From: Desulfovibrio sp.
GTDB lineage: Bacteria; Desulfobacterota; Desulfovibrionia; Desulfovibrionales; Desulfovibrionaceae
Assembly: GCA_016284885.1 (NCBI GenBank)
Contig: JAEEPQ010000004.1
Span: 1-57,100, forward strand
Length of the DNA stretch: 57,100 bases
Direction of reading: 5' to 3'
The notes below the pieces were generated by a model. The model worked only from the letters and a program-made list of their open reading frames with translations. It did no database searches and was not told the origin of the DNA. Shown here piece after piece: positions 3 through 11,011 of the stretch. Within the stretch, counting starts at the first letter, position 1, and each line of letters opens with the position of its first letter. Made by a program: the position numbers and the translations under genes.

Positions 3-341
3 GGCGGCAACCGCGGCGGCGGAGGCGGCGAAGGCTCAGGTCCCGGCGGCGGCGGCCTACACTCGGTCTACATAGGCCAGGTCATGCTCGCCGTGCGCCC
101 CAACTGGGGATATGCCTCGGCCAGCCGGCGCAACCTCCAGTGCACCGTGCACATCACCGTGTCCAAGCAGGGCGAGGTCAAGACCACGCAGGTCGTGCAG
201 TCTTCCGGCAACGCCCAGTACGACGCTTCCTGCATCAACGCCATCATGCGCACCAGCAAGGCGGGAGACTTCCCGCCTCCGCCAACGCCCATGTACGAGG
301 AGCTGGACATCGTCTTCACCTTAAGCGATCTACGGGGCTAA
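3..341 (+). CDS. TonB/TolA C-terminal domain protein, 5' end outside window, Gly-rich linker
   Basis: Frame 3 is open from the window edge (GGNRGGGGGEGSGPGGGG...) into RRNLQCTVHITVSKQGEVKTTQVVQSSGNAQYDASCINAI, typical of TonB/TolA C-terminal domains. Confidence 0.75.
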   Translation, partial: GGNRGGGGGEGSGPGGGGLHSVYIGQVMLAVRPNWGYASASRRNLQCTVHITVSKQGEVKTTQVVQSSGNAQYDASCINAIMRTSKAGDFPPPPTPMYEELDIVFTLSDLRG

Positions 342-2549: not shown

Positions 2550-3842
2550 ATGAACAAGCCCCAGAGCGCGTCCGACGCGAAGACGCCTGAACAGCCCACG
2601 GAAACGACGAACTTCACCAAGGCCCGTGCCAAGCTCTCCTTCGACAGGATGATCGAGCACGGCGCCAAGATGGGCATGCCGAACCCCCTCTTCCACTGCG
2701 CCGACCGCGCCGCCAAGGCGACCATACACATCGACGGCAAAGACTACATCAATTTCTCCACCTACGACTACCTCGACATCAACGGGCATCCGGAGATAAC
2801 CGAGGCCGTCACGGCAACGGCCAAGGTCTACGGCACCTCGGCCGGCGCCAGCCGTCTGGTCGGCGGCGAGCGCGTCCCGCACCGCGAGCTCGAGCAGGCC
2901 CTGTGCGACTTCCTCGGCACCGAGGACTGCATCGCCTACGTGTCCGGCCACGCCACCAACGTGACCACCCTGGGCTTCCTCTTTGGCCCCCGCGACCTCA
3001 TCCTGCACGACAACCTCGCCCACAACTCCCTCGCCCAAGGCGCCCGCCTCTCGGGCGCAACCCGCTTCTCCTACCAGCACAACAGCTGCGAAGACCTCGA
3101 GCGCCTGCTCAAGACCAAGCGCGCGGAGCACAAGAACTGCGTCATCGTCACCGAAGGCCTCTTCAGCATGGACGGCAACATCCCGGACATCCCCCGTCTC
3201 ATCGAACTGAAGAAGCAGTACAACTGCATGCTCATGGTGGACGAGGCCCACTCCCTCGGCGTGCTCGGCGAGCACGGCCGCGGCGTTGCCGAATACTTCA
3301 ACGTCGATCCTAGCGACGTGGATCTCTGGATGAGCACGCTCTCCAAGACCCTCTGCGGCTGCGGCGGCTACATCGCGGGCCGCAGGGACGTGGTCCAGTT
3401 CCTCAAGTACGGCGCCCCCGGCTTCGTCTTCAGCGTCGGCATGCCGCCCGTCATCGCAGCTGCCTGCACCACAGCCCTCAAGATCCTGCGCCGCGAGCCC
3501 GAGCGCGTGAAGCGGGTGCAGCACATCTCCCGCTACTTCCTCGAGTACGCCCAGAGCAAGGGGCTCAACACAGGCGAGGCCCAGGGCTACGCCATCGTCC
3601 CCATCATCACGGGCGAATCCTTCTTCACGGGCTTTCTCTCCGCCCGCCTCTTCCAGCGCGGCATCTACGTCATGCCCATCTCCTTCCCTGCCGTGAAGGA
3701 GGGCGAAGGACGCCTGCGCTTCTTCCTCTCTGCCGCCCAGACCGAGGAGAACGTGCGCAAGACCATCGATGCCGTGATCGAAGAGATGCCGGAAGCCCAG
3801 AAGATGGTGGACCGCTACCGCGCCGAACACCCCGAGGGATAG
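2550..3842 (+). CDS. Alpha-oxoamine synthase family PLP-dependent aminotransferase (serine palmitoyltransferase/KBL/BioF-like)
   Basis: ATG at 2550 inside ORF 2361..3842; YINFSTYDYL, YGTSAGASRLVGGERVPHRELE, VDEAHSLGVLGEHGRG, TLSKTLCGCGGYIAG motifs. Confidence 0.88.
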   Translation: MNKPQSASDAKTPEQPTETTNFTKARAKLSFDRMIEHGAKMGMPNPLFHCADRAAKATIHIDGKDYINFSTYDYLDINGHPEITEAVTATAKVYGTSAGASRLVGGERVPHRELEQALCDFLGTEDCIAYVSGHATNVTTLGFLFGPRDLILHDNLAHNSLAQGARLSGATRFSYQHNSCEDLERLLKTKRAEHKNCVIVTEGLFSMDGNIPDIPRLIELKKQYNCMLMVDEAHSLGVLGEHGRGVAEYFNVDPSDVDLWMSTLSKTLCGCGGYIAGRRDVVQFLKYGAPGFVFSVGMPPVIAAACTTALKILRREPERVKRVQHISRYFLEYAQSKGLNTGEAQGYAIVPIITGESFFTGFLSARLFQRGIYVMPISFPAVKEGEGRLRFFLSAAQTEENVRKTIDAVIEEMPEAQKMVDRYRAEHPEG

Positions 3843-3861
3843 TTCGGGACACTTCCCTGCC

Positions 3862-5193
3862 ATGCCCGACACGCCGCACACGGACGCAGCGCCCGTCCCC
3901 GAACCCGCCGCTGAACCCAGCAGGGCGCCCTTTCCCGGCACATGCGCCTATGTCCTCCTGTGGTTTCCGCTCTCCTCGGAGACATTCATCTTCCGCGAGG
4001 TGCGGGAACTGCAGGCCAGGGGCATGCCCATCGACGTCTTCAGCCTCTACGCTGAAAAACGCGCCGGCCAGTCGCAGGAGATGCGCGGCTATCCCGGCAA
4101 GGTCGTCCGCCTTGGCGCCAGGGCCACGTGGACGCTCTTCACAACCTTTCTGCGCCATATCAGAAAGCACCCCCGCCTCGTCTGGCAGCTGACGCGCGAG
4201 GTGCTCTTCCGGCGCCTGCGCAATCTCGAGGCCCTGGGCGAGAACTCCTGGGCCTTCTTTGCCGGCTTCTGGATAGGCGACCGCGCAAGCGAAGCCGGCA
4301 TCACCCTCTTCCACGCCCCCTGGGCCAACGGGCCGGCCACGGCCGCCTGGGTGGCCTCGAGGGTGTCCGGCATCCCCTTCTCCTTTTCGGGACGCGCCGG
4401 CGACATCTACCCCCAGGACGGCTTGCTGCCGGAAAAAATCCGCGACGCGAGCTTTGTCCGCACCAACAACCAGGCGGACGTTGCCTGGCTGGAGCACCAT
4501 GCGCCGGCAGGCTTCGAGGGCAAGGTGCGGCTTGTCTACAACAGCCTCACGCTGAAGACCGAAGCCGACTGCGCCTGCCCCTGCCAGCCGCCCTACAGGG
4601 TGCTGGCCGTCGGGCGCCTCTGCCGCACCAAGGGCTTCCCCTATCTGCTCACCGCCATGGCCCGCCTGCGGCGGGAACGCTTTCCCGTGCGCCTGACCCT
4701 CGTGGGCGACGGCGTCTGGAAGCGGCGCATCCAGGGCCAGATCAAGCGCCTCAGGCTCGAGGACGCCGTGGATCTGCCGGGCTTCGTGCCGCACGACCGC
4801 ATTGCCGAGTACATGCGAAGCCACGACATGCTCGTCATGCCGAGCGTGGTCCACAGCAACGGCGACCGCGACGGCATACCCAACGTCATCATGGAAGCCC
4901 TTTCCCACGCCATGCCCGTGGCCGCCTCCAACGTCTGCGGCATAGCCGAGGTGGTGCGCGACGGCGAGACGGGCCTGCTCTTCCCCCAGCGCGACGCCAA
5001 GGCCATAGCCCACGCCATACGCTGGGTCTGCGGGCACAGAGAGGAAGCGCTGGCCATGGCCAGGCGCGGCATGGAACTCGTCAAGACCATGTTCGATGCC
5101 GAGGCCAACTCCGGCAAGCTCTACGAGCTCTACGCTGCCCACGCAGAGCTGCCCCACGGAGCGGACTCAGGTTCCGGCAGGACGGAGGGCTAG
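3862..5193 (+). CDS. Glycosyltransferase family 4
   Basis: 443 aa; RVLAVGRLCRTKGFPYLLTAMARL, GDRDGIPNVIMEALSHAMPVAASNVCGIAEVVRDGETGLLF. Confidence 0.88.
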   Translation: MPDTPHTDAAPVPEPAAEPSRAPFPGTCAYVLLWFPLSSETFIFREVRELQARGMPIDVFSLYAEKRAGQSQEMRGYPGKVVRLGARATWTLFTTFLRHIRKHPRLVWQLTREVLFRRLRNLEALGENSWAFFAGFWIGDRASEAGITLFHAPWANGPATAAWVASRVSGIPFSFSGRAGDIYPQDGLLPEKIRDASFVRTNNQADVAWLEHHAPAGFEGKVRLVYNSLTLKTEADCACPCQPPYRVLAVGRLCRTKGFPYLLTAMARLRRERFPVRLTLVGDGVWKRRIQGQIKRLRLEDAVDLPGFVPHDRIAEYMRSHDMLVMPSVVHSNGDRDGIPNVIMEALSHAMPVAASNVCGIAEVVRDGETGLLFPQRDAKAIAHAIRWVCGHREEALAMARRGMELVKTMFDAEANSGKLYELYAAHAELPHGADSGSGRTEG

Positions 5194-5196
5194 GCC

Positions 5197-6222
5197 GTGG
5201 CCAGAAGGGCAGTGCGCGTCGTCTGCTCGCTGGACGTCGAGGAGGAGGGTCTCTTCCGGGGCCGCTATCCCGTTGCCTCCCCCCAGACGGCCAACCTCGA
5301 GCACCTGCACAAGCTCAGCGGCATCATGGCCCTTGGCGCCAGGCCCACGCTCTTCTGCGCCTACACGGTCTTCGACAGCGACAGGGCCTGGCAGGCCTGC
5401 GAAGCGCTTGCCGGCGCAAGCCGTGCGAGGGCAGGCGACGAAGCAGCCTGCGAGATAGGCTGCCACCTGCACCACTGGAACACCCCGCCCTTTGCCAGCG
5501 AAGCCAGCTGCCTTGACTCCGTCCCCTCCTGCGAACTTGCGCCAGAGCTGATGCAAGCCAAGCTCCACACGCTCTTCGAGCGCGCCAGAGACCGCCTTGG
5601 GCATCGTCCCACCTCCTTCCGCATGGGTCGCTGGGACGTTCGGCAGCGCCACTGGCCACTGCTCGCCGAGGCCGGCATTCTGGCCGATGCGTCTGTCCGG
5701 CCCCTGCACGCCGAAAACGCCGGCCATACGCGGCCAAGCCACTTTCACGCGCCCCTTGGCCCCTACCGCATTGCCGCAGGCGGCAAGACCATCGTCGAAT
5801 TTCCCCTCACCTGCGCCCCGCTTTTCCCGGGGCTTCCCTGGCTAGCCACGCGGGGTCCCAGAGCGCTCTACCATGCCTTCCACCAGTGGGGCGTGCTGGC
5901 GCTCCTGCCGGTCTATCATCCGCTCTGGGCCATGCAGGCGGCCACCCTTGCCCATCTCGCCAGCGGGGATGCCGCCATCTCCCTCACCTGGCATTCCTCA
6001 GAGATGATGCCTGGCGGCAATCCCCGGCTGCCCACCGAAGCCGCCGTCCAGGGACTGCTCGCCAAGATCCGGCGCTACCTTTCCTGGCTGACGTCAAAGT
6101 ACGACGTCGCCTTCCTGACCCTCGGCGAGTTTGCCAGACAGGCAGGCCCAGGGCTTCCTGTCGCGTTCGCGGAAGAGGATGCCGACTGGGCAACGCCCCG
6201 AACGGCCCCCAAGCCGTCGTAG
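5197..6222 (+). CDS. Polysaccharide deacetylase-like protein
   Basis: 341 aa, GTG start 3 nt after the upstream stop; CSLDVEEEG...ARPTLFCAYTVFD...EIGCHLHHWNTPPF...SFRMGRWDV pattern of polysaccharide deacetylase-type barrels. Confidence 0.65.
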   Translation: MARRAVRVVCSLDVEEEGLFRGRYPVASPQTANLEHLHKLSGIMALGARPTLFCAYTVFDSDRAWQACEALAGASRARAGDEAACEIGCHLHHWNTPPFASEASCLDSVPSCELAPELMQAKLHTLFERARDRLGHRPTSFRMGRWDVRQRHWPLLAEAGILADASVRPLHAENAGHTRPSHFHAPLGPYRIAAGGKTIVEFPLTCAPLFPGLPWLATRGPRALYHAFHQWGVLALLPVYHPLWAMQAATLAHLASGDAAISLTWHSSEMMPGGNPRLPTEAAVQGLLAKIRRYLSWLTSKYDVAFLTLGEFARQAGPGLPVAFAEEDADWATPRTAPKPS

Positions 6223-6295
6223 GCAAAAGGGTCCGCCCCCCGTTCCGCCCGCATTTCGCCAAGGCCCGCACGCTTCCCCTTTCAAGGTTTCAGCC

Positions 6296-7633
6296 ATGCA
6301 CGAACAGGAACCCACGCTCGCTTTCGACAGCAGCGCTCCGCTGCCGGAGGGGCTTCCGCACGTCGGATGCATCCTGCTCTGGTACCCCCTCTTCACCCAG
6401 CCCTTCATCTTCCGCGACGTGGAGGCCCTGAAGCGCCGTCTGCCCGTGACCGTGTTCTCGCTCTACGGCAGGAACCTCAAGCATTGCTCCGAGGAGATGG
6501 CCGAAGCAGCCCCCTCGGTCCGCACCATGGGCATCAAGGCCCTGCCCGCCATGCTGGCCTCCTGGGCCAAGCTCTTTCTGACAAGGCCCCTTGTCGCTGC
6601 CCGGGCCTTCCGTACCTGCCTCTTCCACCGCTGGACCTCCTGGGAGACCTTCGGCGAGGACATCTGGTCCCACGTGGCAGCCGTCCATCTGGCGCCCCGC
6701 TTCGTCGAGGCCGGCATCGACGTCATCTACGCGCCCTGGCCCCGCGGCACGGCCACGGCAGCCCGCACCATCAGCCTGCTCACCGGCATCCCCTACGCCA
6801 CCTCGGCGCGCGGGGACAATCTGAACCCGCCGGATCCCGACCTCAAGGACAAGCTCCAGCACGCCCTCTTCATCCGCGCCAACAACGCGGCCGACGCCAG
6901 GCGCATCGCCGACCTCGCCGGCCCCGAAGCAGGCGAACGCACCCGCCTCGTTTACAACAGCCTCACCCTCCATGTCGACGAGCTGGCGCCCCTCCCCTTT
7001 GCCAACCCCTGCCGCATCCTTGCCGTGGGGCGCTTCGACGTCACCAAGGGCTTCGACGTGCTCATGCAGGCCTGCGGCATCCTGAAGGCGCAGGGGCGCA
7101 GCTTCAACGTCACGCTTGCCGGCGGCGGCGGACGCGCCATGGGCCTTGGCGCCATGACGGAAACCATCCTTGGCCTGCGCAAAAGCCTCGGCCTGGAAGA
7201 CATCGTGGAGCTTCCCGGCATCGTCGGCCACGATCACCTGCCCGACATCATCAAGGCCCACGACATTTTTGCCGCCCCCTGCGTGATCCACGAGTCCGGC
7301 CGCCGGGACGGCATCCCCAACACCGTCATCGAGGCCATGAGCTTCGGCCTGCCGGTGGTGGCCACCAGGACCAACGCCCTGCCCGAGGCCGTTCACGACC
7401 GCGAGACGGGCCTGCTCGTGGAGCAGAAGGATCCCAAGGCGCTGGCCGACGCCCTGGCCTGGCTCATGGATCATCCCGAGGAAGCGCGCGCCATGGGCAA
7501 GGCCGGCGCCAGGCTTGCCAGCGACATGTTTTCGCCCAAGGCCAACGGCGACAGGCTCGCCCAGCTCTTCGTCGACGCACTGCCTGCCGGAGAGGCCACG
7601 CGCTCTGTGAGAGGTGACGCATGTGCGGAATAG
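6296..7633 (+). CDS. Glycosyltransferase family 4 (paralog of 3862..5193)
   Basis: ATG at 6296 in ORF 6131..7633; RILAVGRFDVTKGFDVLMQA, GRRDGIPNTVIEAMSFGLPVVATRTNALPEAVHDRETGLLV. Confidence 0.88.
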   Translation: MHEQEPTLAFDSSAPLPEGLPHVGCILLWYPLFTQPFIFRDVEALKRRLPVTVFSLYGRNLKHCSEEMAEAAPSVRTMGIKALPAMLASWAKLFLTRPLVAARAFRTCLFHRWTSWETFGEDIWSHVAAVHLAPRFVEAGIDVIYAPWPRGTATAARTISLLTGIPYATSARGDNLNPPDPDLKDKLQHALFIRANNAADARRIADLAGPEAGERTRLVYNSLTLHVDELAPLPFANPCRILAVGRFDVTKGFDVLMQACGILKAQGRSFNVTLAGGGGRAMGLGAMTETILGLRKSLGLEDIVELPGIVGHDHLPDIIKAHDIFAAPCVIHESGRRDGIPNTVIEAMSFGLPVVATRTNALPEAVHDRETGLLVEQKDPKALADALAWLMDHPEEARAMGKAGARLASDMFSPKANGDRLAQLFVDALPAGEATRSVRGDACAE

Positions 7634-9528
7634 CCGGCATAGCGGCCCTTGACGCCAAGACGGCGCTTTCGCCTGCAGCGAAAAGGCAGGTCAAGGCCAT
7701 GACCGACAGCATGGCCTACCGCGGACCCGACGGCGAGGGCGTGGAGCTTATGGGCAGCGTCTGCCTTGGCCACAGGCGGCTTTCCATCATCGATCTCGCC
7801 GGCGGCGCCCAGCCCATGCAGGACGCCGCAGGACAGCTTGCCATTGTCTTCAACGGCGAAATCTACAACTTCAAGGACATACGAAAGGAGCTCGAGGCCC
7901 GGGGCGCCCGCTTCCAGACCCGCTCCGACACCGAGGTCGTGCTCGAGGCCTACCGCGTCTGGGGCACGGACTGCCTTGCCCGCTTCGACGGCATGTTCGC
8001 CTTTGCCCTCTGGGACAGCCAAGCCAGGCGCCTCTTCTGCGCCCGCGACCGCTTCGGCAAGAAGCCCTTCTTCTACACCGTCCAGCAGGGGCGCTTTGTC
8101 TTCGCCTCGGAGCTTGGCTGCCTCAGGCAGATCCCGGATCTCGCCTTCACGCTCGATCCCCAGTCCCTCTCGCGCTACCTCGCCTACCAGTACGTGCCCT
8201 GCCCTGCCACCATGTTCCGGGAGGCCAGCCAGCTTCCGCCGGCCCACGCCCTGGTGCTTGAGCAAGGAAGCCTCACGGTCTTCCGCTGGTGGGACATGCC
8301 CCCGGCTGCAGACAAGGGGCCGGACGAGCATGAGGCCATGCAGACCCTGCGCAGCCTCATGCAGAAGGCCGTAGCCAGGCGCATGGTGAGCGACGTGCCG
8401 CTCGGCGTCTTCCTCTCCGGCGGCATCGACTCCTCCATCGTGGCCGGCCTCATGGCGACCCAGTCGGCCAAGCCCATCGAGACCTTCTCCATAGGCTTCA
8501 CGGAGGCGAGCTACGACGAAAGCGCCTACGCCCGCTGCGTGGCCGAGGCCTTCAAGACCCGCCACCACGAGCGCATCCTCTCGGCCGAGGCCTGCGCCGA
8601 CATCCTGCCCGAGGTGGCCGGCGCCATGGACGTCCCCATGGCCGACGCCTCCTGCGCTCCGACGTGGCTGCTCTCCAAAACCACGCGGGAACACGTCACC
8701 GTCGCCCTTGGCGGCGACGGCGCCGACGAGCTCTGGGCCGGCTACGAGCACTACATCGGCTTCGACATCGCCGAGCGCTACAACGCCCTGCCGGGCTTTT
8801 TGCGCGCCAAGTTCCTCGAGCCCCTATGCCACAGGCTTCCCGCCTCCTCCGGCTACATCAACCCGCGCCTGGCCGTCGAAACCTTTCTGCGGGCAGCCGC
8901 CCGTCCCGCCTGGCAGCGCATCCAGTCCATGCTGACCGCCTTCACGCCGGACATGCAGGCCGAAATCCTCGCCTCGCCAGACAGCGCGTTCCTCAAGGAC
9001 GAGGTCCTCTTTGCGCCCACGCATGCCAACTACAGCCACTGGCCCGACGCCAGCCCGCTGAAGCGCGCCTTCCATGTCTACGCGCGCGAGTTCCTCCTGG
9101 ACGACATCCTCGTCAAGGTGGACCGCTGCTCCATGCTCAACTCGCTCGAGGTGCGCGCCCCCTTCCTGGACCGCGACGTCGTGGACTTCGTCTGCCGGCT
9201 GCCGGTGCGCTGCAAGCTGAAAGGCCTCAAGCGCAAGCACCTGCTCAAGAAAGCCTTCGCCAGCCTGCTGCCGGAGATGATCCTCAAGCGCAACAAGCGC
9301 GGCTTCCAGATCCCCGTGGCCCAGTGGCTGAGGGGCCGCTTGCGCCCGCTCATGGAAGACCTGCTGGGCCGCGACGCCCTGCTCGCCGACGGCTTCTTCA
9401 ATCCTTCCGCCGTGCGCCGGCTCATGGACGACCACGTCTCGGGCAGGAAGGACCTGCGCGTGCCCCTCTGGACGCTCATGGTCTTCCAGCTCTGGCGGCG
9501 CGCCAAGGGCGGAAGCGTCTCCTGCTAA
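7621..9528 (+). CDS. asnB: Asparagine synthase (glutamine-hydrolysing)-type amidotransferase
   Basis: 635 aa; N-terminal MCGIAGI, MAYRGPDGEGVE, FNGEIYNF; synthetase SGGIDSSIVAGLMA; start overlaps the upstream GT gene by 13 nt. Confidence 0.92.
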   Translation: MCGIAGIAALDAKTALSPAAKRQVKAMTDSMAYRGPDGEGVELMGSVCLGHRRLSIIDLAGGAQPMQDAAGQLAIVFNGEIYNFKDIRKELEARGARFQTRSDTEVVLEAYRVWGTDCLARFDGMFAFALWDSQARRLFCARDRFGKKPFFYTVQQGRFVFASELGCLRQIPDLAFTLDPQSLSRYLAYQYVPCPATMFREASQLPPAHALVLEQGSLTVFRWWDMPPAADKGPDEHEAMQTLRSLMQKAVARRMVSDVPLGVFLSGGIDSSIVAGLMATQSAKPIETFSIGFTEASYDESAYARCVAEAFKTRHHERILSAEACADILPEVAGAMDVPMADASCAPTWLLSKTTREHVTVALGGDGADELWAGYEHYIGFDIAERYNALPGFLRAKFLEPLCHRLPASSGYINPRLAVETFLRAAARPAWQRIQSMLTAFTPDMQAEILASPDSAFLKDEVLFAPTHANYSHWPDASPLKRAFHVYAREFLLDDILVKVDRCSMLNSLEVRAPFLDRDVVDFVCRLPVRCKLKGLKRKHLLKKAFASLLPEMILKRNKRGFQIPVAQWLRGRLRPLMEDLLGRDALLADGFFNPSAVRRLMDDHVSGRKDLRVPLWTLMVFQLWRRAKGGSVSC

Positions 9529-9655: not shown

Positions 9656-10534
9656 ATGAACGGCCATACCAAGACTCTTCTCCTCCTGGCCTCCCTCACC
9701 GGCCTCATCCTCCTCATAGGCGCCATGCTCGGCGGCCGCGGAGGCGTCATGATGGCCTTCCTCTTCGCCCTCGCCATGAACGTGGGCAGCTACTGGTTCT
9801 CCGACAAGATCGTGCTGCGCATGTACCGCGCCCAGGACCTCTCTCCTGCCGAAGCGCCGCTCATCTACCAGATCGTGGGCGAGCTCGCCCAGAACGCCAA
9901 TCTCCCCATGCCGCGCATCGTCCTCGTGCCTGAGCAGGCGCCCAACGCCTTTGCCACGGGCCGCGACCCCGAGCACGCGGTGGTGGCCGTGACCGAAGGC
10001 CTGCTCAACATCCTCAATCCCGAGGAAGTCAAGGGCGTGCTTGGCCACGAAATGGCCCACGTGGCCCACAGGGACATCCTCATCCAGACCATAGCCGGCG
10101 TCATGGCGACCACCATCACCTACCTTGCCTACTCCCTCCAGTTCGGCGCCATGTTCGGCGGCCGCGGCGGCGACGGCGAGCGCAGCAACCCCCTCGCCCT
10201 CATCGCCATGGCCGTGCTTGCGCCCATCGCGGCCTCCATCATCCAGATGACCATCTCGCGCCAGCGCGAATATCTCGCCGACGAGTGGGGCGCCCAGTTC
10301 GCCCGCTCCCCGCAGTCTCTGGCCAACGCCCTGAAGAAGCTCGGCACCTACTCAGGCCAGATTCCCATGCAGACCGGCACCCAGTCCACGGCCAACATGT
10401 TCATCGTCCAGCCCCTCTACCCCGGCAGATCCATGGCCTCCCTCATGAGCACCCATCCCCCGCTGGAAGAGCGCATCGCCCGCCTCGAACACATGCAGAT
10501 GACCGGCCAGTACCCCACCGAGGGTACCATTTAG
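9656..10534 (+). CDS. htpX: M48 family membrane zinc metalloprotease HtpX
   Basis: 292 aa; GVLGHEMAHVAHRDIL, N-terminal TM segments, QREYLADEWGAQF. Confidence 0.92.
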   Translation: MNGHTKTLLLLASLTGLILLIGAMLGGRGGVMMAFLFALAMNVGSYWFSDKIVLRMYRAQDLSPAEAPLIYQIVGELAQNANLPMPRIVLVPEQAPNAFATGRDPEHAVVAVTEGLLNILNPEEVKGVLGHEMAHVAHRDILIQTIAGVMATTITYLAYSLQFGAMFGGRGGDGERSNPLALIAMAVLAPIAASIIQMTISRQREYLADEWGAQFARSPQSLANALKKLGTYSGQIPMQTGTQSTANMFIVQPLYPGRSMASLMSTHPPLEERIARLEHMQMTGQYPTEGTI

Positions 10535-10558
10535 CAGGCCGGAAGCGGAAGCGTAGCC

Positions 10559-11011
10559 ATGCGAAAACTCCTTCTTGCAGGCTTCATGGCCTTCGGCCTC
10601 TGCGCCTGCGCACCATCGAACCAGCCCCAGCTCATTGATCCGGCCCAGCCCGAGCAGACCTTCCCTGGCCCCGAGGAGCCCTGCGACAAGGTCTACACCT
10701 TCGCGCCCGGCAGCTTCATCGTGGAGCTGGCGCCCGACTCCGAAAACGAGGTCGTGCTCGAGCCCTCGCTTGCCGAGTTCCGGCTCTTCTGCACGCCTGA
10801 GGCTGCCCGCGCCCACGTAGACAAGGGCATGGCCGACGGCACCATCCAGAAGGGCGACTGGAAGATCTACCAGCTGCAGGGCTCCTACAGCGAGATAGGC
10901 AAAGCCAAGGCGCCTGGCGAGTACATCCTTGCCAGGCAGACCGTCATGGTGGACTGGGTGCGCGAGGCGCCCCAGCCCAAGGCCAAACCCAAGAACAAGA
11001 CGGGCAGATAG
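10559..11011 (+). CDS. Hypothetical lipoprotein
   Basis: 150 aa; lipobox-like signal MRKLLLAGFMAFGLCACAPS. Confidence 0.65.
   Translation: MRKLLLAGFMAFGLCACAPSNQPQLIDPAQPEQTFPGPEEPCDKVYTFAPGSFIVELAPDSENEVVLEPSLAEFRLFCTPEAARAHVDKGMADGTIQKGDWKIYQLQGSYSEIGKAKAPGEYILARQTVMVDWVREAPQPKAKPKNKTGR

Follow-up and report, generated by a model that had tools for sequence, protein, structure and literature searches.

RkpG is the AOS (alpha-oxoamine synthase) partner of RkpA in the rhizobial RkpA/RkpG capsule loci, which combine a PKS with an AOS. The rkp and wcb clusters make capsule (PMC3908369). In the SgaAB cluster of Pseudomonas fluorescens MYb115, an iterative PKS feeds SgaB, for which serine palmitoyltransferase (SPT) activity was shown, and SgaAB makes sphinganines (PMC12134224). 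An SPT using a dedicated ACP is known from the rhodobacterial AasR/AcpR/Spt system (PMC9386255). In Sphingomonas and Sorangium, sphingolipids replace LPS, according to work cited in PMC11324152.

The window analyzed here comprises 57,100 nt of contig JAEEPQ010000004.1 from a Desulfovibrio sp. (GCA_016284885.1) and carries an AOS at the head of a five-gene operon. The locus resembles SgaAB in its PKS-linked type of AOS and, by prediction, in a thioester supplied by a type I PKS-like carrier and in a long-chain 2-amino-3-ketone product. In place of the adjacent iterative type I PKS of SgaAB and RkpAG stands an AT-ACP protein without KS, termed c1, and compared with SgaAB, loci of the window type add GT4 glycosyltransferases, a deacetylase, AsnB and flippase/efflux genes. 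Unlike the RkpA/RkpG and WcbR capsule loci, they have no complete PKS, and genes for capsule export were not seen in them. AOS chemistry and a specialized acyl carrier protein are shared with the rhodobacterial SPT system; however, the AOS belongs to a separate clade (grouping rejected by the AU test), the ACP is embedded in an AT-ACP-KR-DH protein with degenerate-looking KR and DH, and no acyl-ACP synthetase was seen in the window-type cluster. As in Sphingomonas and Sorangium, lipid A genes appear to be lost alongside an amino-lipid pathway, here a predicted one, whereas the AOS clade and the tailoring genes are different. The five genes are best explained as one half of a divergently organized pathway belonging to the core of the genus.

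Layout and conservation of the operon

The following genes were assigned in the first part of the window:

3..341, + strand: C-terminus of a TolA-like gene, start on contig C284 (L073); based on the end overlap with L073
591..2195, + strand: TonB_2-domain periplasmic protein between the tol genes and AOS (PF13103, 6e-10)
2550..3842, + strand: AOS, alpha-oxoamine synthase, RkpG/SgaB-like, 430 aa (PF00155, 5.6e-49)
3862..5193, + strand: GT4a, GT4 glycosyltransferase, EpsE/WcaL-like (PF13692, 1e-33; synteny)
5197..6222, + strand: CE4/NodB-type deacetylase-like protein, GTG start (fold match and invariant motifs)
6296..7633, + strand: GT4b, GT4 glycosyltransferase, paralog of GT4a, ATG start (PF13692, 1e-29)
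7621..9528, + strand: AsnB-type glutamine-dependent amidotransferase (PF00733, 1.5e-102; PF13537)

The preliminary description had reported five co-directional genes of these families at these positions, which was confirmed by ORFs and Pfam matches and, for the deacetylase, by fold; its view of the two GT4 proteins as paralogs also held (38% identity, blastp 4.7e-89). AOS and GT4a are separated by 19 nt, GT4a and the deacetylase gene by 3 nt, and the deacetylase gene and GT4b by 73 nt, and the start of AsnB overlaps the end of GT4b by 13 nt. Both GT4 proteins were matched by PF13692 and PF00534, and the best NCBIfam model for GT4a was EpsE (131 bits, cut-off 400). The catalytic features of AsnB are intact (Cys2, SGGIDSS). 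The protein scored above the cut-off of the NCBIfam asparagine synthase model and could be an ordinary asparagine synthetase, which would count against a role in a lipid pathway. An exosortase XrtA/PEP-CTERM system was rejected, with AsnB at 603 bits (TIGR03108 cut-off 817) and the glycosyltransferases also under the respective cut-offs.

No Pfam or NCBIfam model, including those of the CE4 family, matched the deacetylase-like protein at E 0.001. Its AlphaFold model (pLDDT 80, built with 11 sequences) was matched by Foldseek to 3rxz (3e-8), ArnD (8t0j, 2e-7) and HP0310 (3qbu, 3e-7). The acidic and histidine-containing motifs DVEEEG, HLHHW, FRMGRWD and WHSSE were invariant in 16 homologs. As judged from the model, the third gene product is assigned to the NodB-type fold of CE4 polysaccharide deacetylases.

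Named records of the group to which the genome of the window belongs bear the name Desulfovibrio. An AOS of the window type (E < 1e-100) was found in 76 of 79 genomes of this genus, including all 55 of high quality. The order AOS-(GT4a)-deacetylase-GT4b-AsnB recurred in all inspected loci of the genus and of the sister genus that extended far enough, a conservation that lends support to the preliminary description. GT4a was absent from a good part of the inspected loci and is thus an optional member, so that the invariant core consists of four genes. This recurrence of gene order is far beyond chance, and the five-gene set (GT4a optional) together with c1 is a genus-wide core. Genes for an HtpX-like protease and a DVU_2496-family lipoprotein (window 9656-11011) trail the operon in most loci of the genus as well.

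Conserved order could also reflect a loose syntenic block, in which AsnB is a housekeeping asparagine synthetase, the glycosyltransferases and the deacetylase modify some other surface glycan, and the AOS belongs to a pathway of its own. Because the htpX and lipoprotein genes travel along in most loci, synteny alone is no proof of shared function, and both the occasional absence of GT4a and the asparagine synthase score of AsnB are in line with such a block. It is nevertheless very improbable in view of the tight spacing and overlap of the operon genes and because the four-gene core is found again both in the sister genus and in a genome of 1.4 Mb with c1 located 55 kb off.

Assignment of the alpha-oxoamine synthase

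The AOS has the PLP lysine Lys266 as well as His158 and Asp231, aligned with BioF, KBL, SPT and HemA, which places the predicted protein in the alpha-oxoamine synthase family of fold-type I PLP enzymes. In a tree of 44 rows that did not include the SgaB and RkpG references, the window-type AOSs formed a single clade (100/100) nested among PKS-adjacent or PKS-fused AOSs. Grouping with the PKS set was not rejected by the AU test (p 0.33). Assignment to KBL was rejected (AU p 3e-6; NCBIfam KBL 318 bits, cut-off 460), as was assignment to BioF (AU p 4e-5 with E. coli BioF; NCBIfam bioF 349 bits, cut-off 426) and to canonical SPT (AU p 2e-38; NCBIfam bits/cut-offs 287/640, 238/500 and 178/670). HemA and CqsA-type enzymes were dismissed on scores under the NCBIfam cut-offs. 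By sequence, the enzyme is therefore classified as a PKS-linked AOS of the RkpG/SgaB-like type. The preliminary description had named an SPT/KBL-type PLP enzyme; the family was right, and the nearest kin are PKS-linked AOSs of capsule and sphingolipid loci, not SPT or KBL. The outcome that it had named as refuting, an AOS inside the BioF or KBL clade with a neighborhood not conserved in relatives, did not occur.

The AOS shares approximately 46-50% identity with AOSs that adjoin a PKS in Pseudomonas, Caballeronia and Shinella, in loci with capsule genes. A Planktothrix PKS carries an AOS of the PKS-linked type fused at its C-terminus (51% identity in the aligned region). Loci with a PKS next to the AOS, both within the family and on plasmids of Pseudomonas, Caballeronia and Shinella, have the RkpA/RkpG-SgaAB arrangement of PKS and AOS, mostly with added SDR and LTA-synthase-type genes and often with GNAT and capsule genes.

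This kinship allows for a lipid anchor of a capsule or exopolysaccharide of the RkpA/RkpG or WcbR type, in which the aminoketone lipid would end a long polysaccharide instead of forming a free glycolipid. The AOS shares its clade with enzymes of capsule PKS-AOS loci in which KpsC/S-like, poly-export and ABC genes occur, the GT4 proteins resemble EpsE/WcaL, and the flippase encoded near c1 resembles Wzx. Such an anchor is still judged unlikely, as the scanned genes of window-type loci included none for PF05159 (KpsC/S), poly-export or ABC export, the glycosyltransferases number only two, and capsule loci do not usually belong to the core of a whole genus.

The carrier-protein gene c1 and the proposed pathway

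The protein c1 (approximately 1,050-1,200 aa) contains an AT (PF00698, 3e-28) and an ACP (PF00550, 8e-7) and is without a KS; the rest of the protein gave no Pfam match. The AT retains an invariant GHSLGE, a conserved Arg and FHxP, and resembles malonyl transferases (fabD, 121 bits). The ACP motif is DLRxDLxLRSS with an invariant Ser, preceded by Arg where Asp is usual. The C-terminus was modeled with the double hot dog fold of PKS dehydratases (5hst, 4e-14), and the catalytic His of this region is not conserved. From the alignment, both the KR and the DH regions look degenerate, the middle part being without a clear KR nucleotide motif.

All 55 high-quality genomes of the genus have c1. It lies within 2 kb of AOS, divergently oriented, in 52 of 74 genomes, and both genes are present where they are unlinked, as in a 1.4-Mb single-contig genome with 55 kb between them. 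In the inspected loci, c1 is followed by genes for TolC-like (OEP), HlyD-like and Wzx-like proteins, and the layout c1-OEP-HlyD-Wzx / AOS-deacetylase-GT4b-AsnB recurred in the intact loci inspected. The Wzx-like assignment is far under the NCBIfam cut-offs and had no match among solved structures. An SDR of the SgaC/RkpH-like (3-ketosphinganine-reductase) type was not found in window-type loci at 1e-10.

In the genome of the window, contig C284 carries c1 (- strand) followed by tolQ, tolR and tolA (all + strand). Its right end and the left end of the window share 113 bp at 91% identity inside tolA, an overlap suggestive of a junction. The local order is likely c1 leftward and then tolQ, tolR, tolA, the TonB_2 gene and the AOS operon rightward. 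The closest relative (L038) is without the tol insert, and the upstream DNA differs from L038. In the genome of the window, the tol gene insert and the contig break appear to separate c1 and the flippase gene from AOS. The c1/OEP region of another contig, C58 (L075), is 98% identical to L038, versus 87-91% for C284; the MAG may mix two strains, with C58 from another strain.

The contig of the window gave no ACP or KS Pfam match. In the preliminary description, the lack of an ACP and a flippase had been taken to mean that the pathway is short or needs remote partners; the contig is indeed without an ACP match, but c1 adjoins AOS in most relatives and is followed by the OEP, HlyD and Wzx-like genes. 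A short pathway was not borne out, since the c1, OEP, HlyD and Wzx-like genes add to it.

Other Thermodesulfobacteriota (L123-L129) encode NMO-KS-AT-ACP-KR-DH megasynthases of 2,600-2,700 aa, whose AT and ACP region is 33-37% identical to c1 and whose I/L-R-S-S ACP motif (instead of DSL) matches c1 in the two checked. These proteins share the architecture of c1 but keep NMO and KS in front, both missing from c1, which therefore looks like a truncated derivative. A megasynthase-AOS link was rejected, the neighborhoods of L123-L129 being without AOS, GT4 or AsnB.

KS-less loading of the SxtA type is a precedent for reading c1 as a protein loaded with no more than a malonyl or acetyl unit. The AOS product would then be a small aminoketone, not a lipid, and would serve as precursor of a sugar or head group. 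The degenerate look of the reducing domains of a KS-less protein fits this reading, as does an AT that matches malonyl transferases and in which the Arg with a presumed role in malonate binding is conserved. The position of the AOS within a PKS-linked clade whose characterized member makes long-chain bases and the envelope-type neighbors (flippase, HlyD, TolC) make it improbable, more so than a capsule anchor.

We consider it moderately probable that c1 supplies the AOS with an acyl or polyketide thioester and that the aminoketone is then elaborated by GT4a/b, the deacetylase and AsnB and exported in the manner of Wzx/HlyD/TolC. The substrates, chain length, amino acid, sugars, step order, product and export route are those that we infer from the predicted enzymes. 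The phosphopantetheine arm of c1 would carry the chain, and the AOS would condense this thioester and an amino acid (by analogy with SgaB, probably serine) under loss of CO2, giving a sphingoid-like 2-amino-3-ketone. The two GT4 enzymes would add sugars, one of which the CE4-type enzyme would deacetylate, and AsnB would convert a carboxyl group to an amide. Finally, the Wzx-like flippase together with the HlyD-like and TolC-like proteins may move the glycolipid to the outer membrane, where it could stand in, at least in part, for LPS.

This c1-AOS lipid pathway is supported by the placement of the AOS in the PKS-linked clade and by the presence of both c1 and AOS in all 55 high-quality genomes, mostly in adjacent position. 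Counting against it are the missing KS and the degenerate-looking KR and DH of c1 with respect to chain source and length, the Arg in place of Asp before the ACP serine with respect to the predicted activation of the carrier, the lack of an SgaC/RkpH-like SDR, and the weak Wzx assignment. Of the glycosylated and amidated amino-lipid put forward in the preliminary description, an AOS-based pathway with glycosylation is thus supported; the amidation and the product itself we infer.

LPS genes in the family and further PKS-type loci

LpxC, LpxB and LptD were screened as the three LPS markers in 149 genomes of the family, and all positive controls (E. coli, Caulobacter) were found. LpxC was present in 104, LpxB in 104 and LptD in 103 genomes, and none of the three was detected in 39. 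These 39 included all nine sampled genomes of the genus, one of them a single contig of 3.3 Mb with a completeness rating of 100%, and all three sister-genus genomes carrying the AOS cluster. Any AOS of this enzyme family was found in 18 of the 39 genomes without the LPS genes versus 8 of the 110 others (Fisher 4e-7, a value that ignores phylogeny). Perfect complementarity of AOS and LPS genes was rejected, as 21 of the 39 were without AOS at E 1e-80 and eight AOS genomes have the LPS genes.

It is conceivable, yet rather doubtful, that the genus lost lipid A synthesis and Lpt and builds its surface from an AOS-derived, glycosylated and amidated lipid loaded on c1, with Wzx/HlyD/TolC export replacing Lpt. 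The 21 genomes with neither AOS nor LPS genes imply that such a surrogate cannot be at work in every relative without LPS. Lipid A chemistry was reported for D. desulfuricans strain DV/A (PMC3354558), and a paper in FEBS Lett of 2015 reportedly deals with lipid A from D. desulfuricans isolates as well. These publications, on strains that go by the name D. desulfuricans, are in conflict with the undetected LPS genes. In two Desulfovibrio symbionts from the termite gut, a loss of several LPS genes has been noted (PMC7608387). Literature searches on AOS and PKS, and on LpxC and LptD, in Desulfovibrio yielded no account of this cluster or of LPS gene loss across the genus.

The LPS of Desulfovibrio, sulfate reducers of the gut, is frequently cited as a factor in inflammation. 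If LpxC, LpxB and LptD are truly missing from the genus, claims on Desulfovibrio endotoxin need re-examination, and the core cluster offers a concrete candidate, based on named genes, for a surface-lipid pathway of Desulfovibrio. The proposed pathway, if true, would represent a new bacterial amino-lipid design, in which a PKS remnant, left with AT and ACP after the loss of its KS, feeds the AOS.

Approximately 20 genomes of the genus have a second, more distant AOS copy, and the single one inspected (G087, L061) adjoins a PKS. In the genome of the window, a partial KS match on contig C189 (L087, 5275-7753) adjoins a divergent AOS-like enzyme with 28% identity to the window AOS and a very long branch in the tree. 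Long ORFs on the 12.3-kb contig C136 (L074) encode a KS, an AT and four PP-binding domains and represent a separate NRPS/PKS-type cluster.
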